Shown: positions 34,301 to 35,071 of the stretch, piece by piece
Numbering within the stretch: position 1 is the stretch's first letter
Layout: each line of letters opens with the position of its first letter
Assembly: GCA_039111635.1 (NCBI GenBank)
Contig: JBCAQO010000014.1
Span: forward strand, 1,550,001-1,614,000
Direction: 5' to 3'
Source of the DNA: Heterobasidion occidentale
Lineage: Eukaryota; Basidiomycota; Agaricomycetes; Russulales; Bondarzewiaceae
Length of the DNA stretch: 64,000 nucleotides
Program-made: the position numbers and the translations under genes
The notes under the pieces: generated by a model
Seen by the model: the letters and a program-made list of their open reading frames with translations, nothing else
The model's database searches: none
Told to the model about the DNA's origin: nothing

Positions 34301-35071
34301 GATCTATCTGTCTTCCATCACTCAATCGCTTACTCTTCCTCTCAACCAGCGATGTTTCGTGGGGTACGAAGGGCGACAACAAGGTCAACACAGATCTTGG
34401 CGTCGTCAAGACGGGCAAGAACACGAACGAAGTCGAGGTGGCCGTGCCGACCGCCGAGACGGACATCAACGCCGCGTATGAAGACGCAATCCACGTGCTG
34501 TCCACCAAGCCGCCAAAAGAGGAACACAAGTCGGACCCTGCGACGGAGCAGGAAGATTATTACAGGAACTTCAGAACAAAGTGCGTGACAGCTCGACATT
34601 TTTCTGCTTTTGAATGCGTGCTGACGCGCGACCTTGCAGCGTGAGTGGTGGTAGCGGAGATCATCAAAGTTGCGCGCAGGTTGTTAATGAATTTTTGCCT
34701 TGCAGGTTCTGATGGCATGGGTTTTGTCGAACGTGAGTCTGCGCTGAGCATTCAGCCATGTGTCATTTGCTGATTACACCTATCCGCAGTGCCTTCTCAT
34801 TGCCATCATCCTGTGAGCACTATTGTCACGCATTGATCGTAGTTTGACTCATACACCTTTCGTCTGAAAAGGACAGCAACAGGGAGCGCGGCGACCAGCG
34901 GTGCAAGCAGTACCGTCAACGGATACATGATCTTCATCTTGTACTCTGTGGCTCTTCTTGCCTGTGAGCCTTATTTCTCGCCATTGAAGCCTCGGCGCTG
35001 ATCCCCTTCTAGTTGTTCGTTTCGTTGGCTCCTCCGCATATATGATCATTCGGTTGTTTGCTGGAGAGTAG
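31182..35071 (+). CDS. Chitin synthase (class I-III type)
   Basis: This is an integral plasma-membrane processive transferase that polymerises UDP-GlcNAc into chitin. Exons start at 31182, 31255, 31963, 32496, 32849, 32955, 33133, 33238, 33399, 33635, 33912, 34130, 34278, 34350, 34640, 34706, 34790, 34872 and 35013, and phases agree throughout. The N-terminal region is Pro/Gln-rich with a run of about 15 Gln; then come the CHS N-domain (LFHGNFVLDSAVP), MTMYNEDD, the VLPGAFSAYRY loop, ANMYLAEDR (catalytic Asp) and QRRRWLNGSF (product-binding QRRRW), followed by at least six membrane helices and the end MIIRLFAGE. Exon 13 is 14 nt, and the model needs a 1-nt exon at 34640 to restore NVLMAWVLSN. 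The acidic, Lys-rich stretch around 34440-34570 is a cytoplasmic loop. It is complete. Confidence 0.93.
31313..31361 (+). repeat. CAG microsatellite encoding polyglutamine
   Basis: A nearly pure CAG tract, with one CAA interruption near the start, lies in the second exon of the chitin synthase and encodes a glutamine run in the disordered N-terminal region. It is likely length-variable between strains by replication slippage. Confidence 0.9.

Follow-up and report, generated by a model that had tools for sequence, protein, structure and literature searches.

A putative single-nucleotide exon in a chitin synthase gene of Heterobasidion occidentale

We found that a lone C at position 34640 is very probably a one-letter exon of a chitin synthase gene in Heterobasidion occidentale. 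We consider the exon very probably real because its splice sites are of good quality, because it restores the reading frame, and because the protein it predicts is present in the uninterrupted frame of a near-identical gene. The position had been proposed by a first-pass annotation of the window (the whole 64,000-nucleotide stretch of DNA analyzed here), and our reading of splice sites, frame and homologous proteins supports it: it belongs to the sole enumerated solution that restores RTN followed by VLMAWVLSN, and it does so with four good sites.

The chitin synthase gene occupies positions 31182–35071 of the plus strand, from the start ATG at 31182 to the stop TAG at 35069–35071. Our manual model has 19 exons, the one-base exon included, and 18 introns, all GT-AG, and encodes 951 residues. 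A near-identical protein, P0001, matches the Pfam families Chitin_synth_1N, Chitin_synth_1, and Chitin_synth_2. The source genome comprises 45 Mb in 159 contigs. Three further exons of the gene are very small (34278–34291, 14 nt; 34706–34732, 27 nt; 34790–34812, 23 nt), and a CAG run in exon 2 (around 31316–31360), a candidate polymorphic repeat, encodes a Gln run 7 residues longer than that of P0001. Downstream, a convergent gene on the minus strand (35350–37450) is visible as several open frames, and within it MYCSKSCQVLGWKKGHKTEC is reminiscent of a MYND-type zinc finger.

Exon 14 (34350–34580) ends in AGA ACA AA, the final AA being two bases of an Asn codon. Intron A (34581–34639, 59 nt, phase 2) runs from GTGCGT to CCTTGCAG; the putative exon C (34640) would supply the third base of the Asn885 codon; and intron B (34641–34705, 65 nt, phase 0) runs from GTGAGT to CCTTGCAG. 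Exon 16 (34706–34732, 27 nt), with the letters GTTCTGATG from 34706, encodes VLMAWVLSN and is as long as the exon encoding VLLAWVLSN in a paralogue on C6 of the same genome. The coordinates given by the first-pass annotation all proved accurate when the sequence was re-read: ACAAA ends at 34580, GTGCGT begins at 34581, the C is 34640, GTGAGT begins at 34641, and TTGCAG acceptors end at 34639 and 34705. Its statement that introns of 59 and 65 nt are of normal size also holds, as the other 16 introns of the gene measure 49–68 nt, and so does its observation that direct joining of 34580 to 34706 gives a stop (AAG TTC TGA, read as RTKF and then the stop). Left undivided, the stretch 34581–34705 would be 125 nt; the C splits it into 59 + 65.

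To score the sites, we used matrices derived from the same 16 introns that supply the range for comparison. The donors of introns A and B score 8.0 and 7.9, respectively (4.2–10.4 in the other 16 introns), and both acceptors score 5.0 (2.9–8.1). Each intron has a match to the branch-point motif YTRAY, CTGAC at 34621–34625 and TTAAT at 34684–34688, lying 15 and 18 nt before the respective intron end; such a match is present in 12/16 of the other introns. Thus one base stands between an AG and a GT of consensus quality (5.0 and 7.9), both flanking introns are viable by size and branch point, and without the base neither the frame nor the conserved protein is kept, its skipping giving a stop.

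Around the joint, we enumerated introns 40–150 nt long of the GT-AG, GC-AG, and AT-AC types, singly and in pairs. Ten solutions retain MAWVLSN without a stop; among them, only the pair 34581–34639 and 34641–34705 has four good sites, and only that pair yields RTN. GC donors were rejected in this enumeration, as were the two-intron solutions that use GC at 34583 as a donor. The first-pass annotation had listed a non-GT donor and the acceptor at 34679 as alternative routes, and both are weighed here, but it missed an in-frame donor at 34585 (GTGACA, 34585–34590). From this donor, a single 121-nt intron ending at the acceptor 34705 would join in frame to 34706 with canonical GT and AG, leaving C34640 intronic and giving the product RTKCVLMAWVLSN, which contains RTKCV. 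However, the donor scores –2.0 against 4.2–10.4, is without the G at +5 that is present in all 16 reference donors, and would not account for the presence of well-formed sites at 34639 and 34641. We judge it unused; the homologues bearing on it are given below.

Acceptor 34679 scores 5.3, and joining across 34581–34679 is stop-free up to 34732, in agreement with the earlier statement that this route keeps an open frame. As was also stated, it loses VLMAWVLSN, together with conserved residues beyond that P0001 and the clean homologues keep. The C terminus would then be lost, the transcript being a decay product or the gene nonfunctional, and we regard C-terminal loss of this kind as extremely improbable. 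Equally remote is a non-GT donor or nested intron by which AAAG would meet GTTCTG to give RTKVLMAWVLSN. RTK directly followed by V, at normal length, does occur in 9/128 annotated homologues among the matches listed, but this joining requires a TG-AG intron in a gene whose 16 other introns are all GT-AG; N is read in P0001 and in the 27 further proteins among the matches listed whose only sources are lgn or jgi, and the RTK-V homologues may simply carry AAG/GT in their DNA (the slash marking the exon end). A stwintron is an intron nested within a splice element of another intron, removed in two steps with no base left behind. We rejected this structure, since excising all of 34581–34705 leaves RTKF and a stop.

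How readily such an arrangement arises by chance depends on the quality asked of the sites. When the interior was simulated 100,000 times with a first-order Markov model, the bare pattern AG-[C/T]-GT was found in 12% of the runs and is by itself unconvincing; the case rests on site quality, frame and homologues. For YAG-[C/T]-GTNNG flanked by introns that are each 45 nt or longer, the density in the window, 24 sites over the two strands of its 64 kb, predicts 0.007 occurrences, and the pattern was found in 1.4% of the 100,000 simulations. These values bear on the possibility that a base is missing from the assembly near the joint, or that the gene carries a real frameshift, the true structure being an ordinary 125-nt intron. 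The frame would be mended by a single added base in either exon 14 or exon 16, but the well-formed one-base exon would then be a coincidence (0.7–1.4%), the gene is otherwise intact, with near-identity to P0001, and the Amylostereum protein, annotated with RTKCV, implies AA/GTGCGT or AA/GTGTGT there too. We therefore find a missing base or frameshift highly unlikely.

The closest comparison is P0001 (944 aa), which differs from the window protein at 19 of 944 aligned residues and by one 7-residue gap in the Gln run. Across the joint it reads RTNVLMAWVLSN with no gap, and thus RTN. P0001 is known as a protein only, and its source is labeled lgn, which we read as Logan. The gene caller Prodigal does not splice, and a frame that runs uninterrupted yet matches an 18-intron gene should therefore stem from RNA, in the form of a contig free of introns. 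Logan proteins, according to the accessible part of their description, were predicted on SRA contigs by Prodigal in its metagenomic mode, RNA-seq accessions included (PMC12424806). The contig of P0001 exceeds its coding sequence by 1110 nt and the introns of the window gene total 1034 nt, so length alone would not exclude introns in that contig; the surplus is merely 177–259 nt for P0075, P0013, and P0051. A protein search with the RTKCV form, with three candidates, returned P0001 alone.

The first-pass annotation had also suggested an alignment of chitin synthase proteins as a check. Our set of 156 proteins combines the best 120 of 949 matches to the C-terminal region with 36 additional proteins that were among the best 120 of 5993 matches to the central region, and all counts that follow are among the matches listed. 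Of these proteins, 128 have genome-annotation sources (among them P0049 and P0156, whose sources are lgn and ncbi) and 28 have only lgn or jgi sources (19 + 9, hand-sorted); we refer to the latter as transcript-type. The alignment agrees with the proposed exon: near-identical P0001 reads RTN, and a clean RTN-V is found in 28/28 transcript-type proteins. The annotated proteins are more varied, with a clean RTN-V in 83/128, so that many genes may have an ordinary structure at the joint, or a correct model. The remainder comprise RTK-V of normal length (9/128), RTK with extra residues (16/128), RTN with extra or other residues (15/128), and five outside these patterns, among them P0154, a clean RTN-V with an early end, and P0121 and P0122, which read NVS. 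The nine RTK-V proteins (P0006, P0011, P0019, P0028, P0056, P0061, P0080, P0097, and P0152) are not predicted by the one-base exon model and may reflect a real AAG/GT intron or another annotation workaround.

The specific letters are informative. Where exon 14 ends in AA/GTGYGT or AA/GTAYGT, an annotator that splices at the donor's second GT stays in frame and places K-C or K-Y before V; where intron A is excised and the exon is extended across AAY/GTRAGT, N-V-S results. With the window donors GTGCGT and GTGAGT, the same workarounds would yield KCV and NVS. By direct pattern match, RTK[CY]V occurs in 13/128 annotated proteins (with VL directly after it in nine) and RTNV[SC] in 14/128. By codon logic, both sets of letters are what an annotator unable to place a one-base exon would produce, and an ordinary single intron should need neither error. 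Together they occur in 27/128 annotated proteins versus 0/28 with only lgn or jgi sources (Fisher p = 0.0045, a guide only, the species being related). The thirteen RTK[CY]V proteins are also what the donor at 34585 would predict, but P0001 reads RTN and K-C or K-Y is found in 0/28 transcript-type proteins; taken with its site score, we think its use very improbable and retain the C at 34640 as an exon.

Misalignment at the joint points in the same direction with less specificity. When the 156 proteins were aligned with the window protein, insertions or deletions within 3 residues of the joint were found in 33/128 annotated and 0/28 transcript-type proteins. At the twelve joints after exons 2–13, they number 1–7 each in annotated proteins (pooled 43/1535); after exons 16, 17, and 18, they number 22/128, 39/128 (3/28 transcript-type), and 9/128, respectively, so that the joints following the 27- and 23-nt exons are often disturbed as well; and over 488 positions outside joints, the median is 2, the mean 5.4, and the maximum 80. 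The joint after exon 1 was omitted because of the variable N terminus, and at two joints the denominators are 127 (of 128) and 24 and 27 (of 28). The excess at the one-base exon joint is real yet not unique, and it is the specific letters that bear the argument. The aligned letters in the two best solved chitin synthases are R-S-L-V and R-S-M-T; Asn is therefore not universal at this position.

The footprints extend across several orders, in species that include Amylostereum chailletii (Russulales, Stereaceae), whose protein is the nearest named one among the matches listed (91% over residues 190–800), Plicaturopsis crispa (Amylocorticiales), Neolentinus lepideus (Gloeophyllales), Amanita brunnescens (Agaricales), and Cerioporus squamosus (Polyporales). 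Within Amanita, close relatives disagree: Amanita polypyramis and A. brunnescens are annotated with RTKYV, and P0050, 91% identical to both, reads RTN. RTN is likewise read in P0034 and P0036, which share 97% identity with a protein of A. muscaria that also reads RTN. A search for orthologous DNA returned no relative in viral_contigs or genome_contigs, and the wider claim is built on protein letters, those of the 27/128 annotated homologues among the matches listed. Because footprints occur in these and in 0/28 uninterrupted frames from short contigs, the exon is probably old and common to Agaricomycetes. We think it likely, with less confidence than for the exon itself, that it is an old feature of mushroom-forming fungi, was born of introns one base apart, and corrupts the gene model at the C terminus in a considerable fraction of public Agaricomycete genomes.

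Paralogues in the same genome suggest how the exon may have arisen. The C6 paralogue reads RTN, a 62-nt phase-0 intron, VLLAWVLSN, a 61-nt phase-0 intron, and GLL; it thus has one ordinary intron directly after the same Asn codon. At this site the C1 and C3 paralogues are intronless, with the readings RTNVVLAW and RTRLVAFW. Judged by position, the window gene and the C6 paralogue share intron B and the intron that follows VLSN; intron A interrupts the Asn codon one base farther upstream and is either an addition in the window gene or a loss in the paralogue. We infer that two introns came to sit one base apart, probably an extra phase-2 intron, A, just upstream of the shared phase-0 intron B. 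Shuffled sequences were as good as the real pair in 2.6% of cases for A and B, 0.6% for A and the paralogue intron, and 17% for B and the paralogue intron. By this measure, intron A is closer to the paralogue's intron than B is, which runs against B being the older; the age order of A and B is therefore a lead, not a result. The similarity may come from shared splice motifs, and we do not take it as proof of descent. A tandem duplication as the source of intron A was rejected, the sole direct repeat of at least 8 nt near the joint being CCTTGCAG, which recurs at the two acceptors with a spacing of 66 nt.

We postulate that introns of 59 and 65 nt would each be recognized by intron definition and removed sequentially, because two spliceosomes can hardly occupy sites one base apart. 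Exon 14 would contribute AA and exon 16 GTT CTG; with the lone C between them, the joint would then read ACA AAC GTT CTG (T N V L). The mRNA joint with the C included would be AGAACAAACGTTCTGATG; ACAAAGTGCGTTCTG or ACAAAGGTTCTG would be incompatible with a one-base exon. Transcripts skipping the C (AAG TTC TGA) would be expected to decay. For APC11, Guo and Liu, in the accessible part of their report, favor intron definition with the two introns removed one by one (PMC4674806), and by analogy a sequential removal of this type fits the chitin synthase joint.

Should the exon prove as widely distributed as the annotation errors imply, it would provide a test bed for the spliceosome at sites one base apart and mark a recurrent, correctable mistake in the gene models of mushrooms. 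Lying in a cell-wall enzyme of a fungus whose genome also has a single-intron paralogue, it further offers a concrete route to such exons. The open-licence literature on chitin synthase with microexons, stwintrons or basidiomycete intron positions yielded no report of this exon.

The exon in chitin synthase is very probably a further case of a known and very rare kind. The first-pass annotation rightly called one-nucleotide exons an extreme rarity, but the plant APC11 exon it named (PMC4674806) is not the sole case: nuclear examples are also described in plant VPS55 (PMC8831610) and Fusarium CYP621A (PMC12940212), and the literature includes mitochondrial cases too. As far as the accessible parts of these reports describe them, APC11 of Arabidopsis likewise has one base between AG and GT that is required for the frame and misannotated, and it is constitutive, as the chitin synthase base would be; its base is an A in a 422-nt intronic stretch of a plant gene, proven by cDNA and mutants (PMC4674806). 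The VPS55 exon is long conserved, as the chitin synthase exon may be, and similarly absent from reference annotations, with a conserved GTRAGT donor and a gene copy that is exon-less, but it is alternatively included in some plants, was confirmed by RT-PCR, and belongs to an unrelated gene (PMC8831610). CYP621A is likewise a fungal gene with one base between AG and GT that is essential to the frame within a conserved motif; its intron stretch is likewise oversized (139 nt against a median of 56), and the gene models of relatives are likewise wrong at the joint (PMC12940212). It differs in that the base is a G in the middle of a Gly codon, confirmed by RNA reads, in an ascomycete; and whereas its authors propose a base loss rescued by a cryptic exon (PMC12940212), the chitin synthase exon would have arisen from two introns one base apart.
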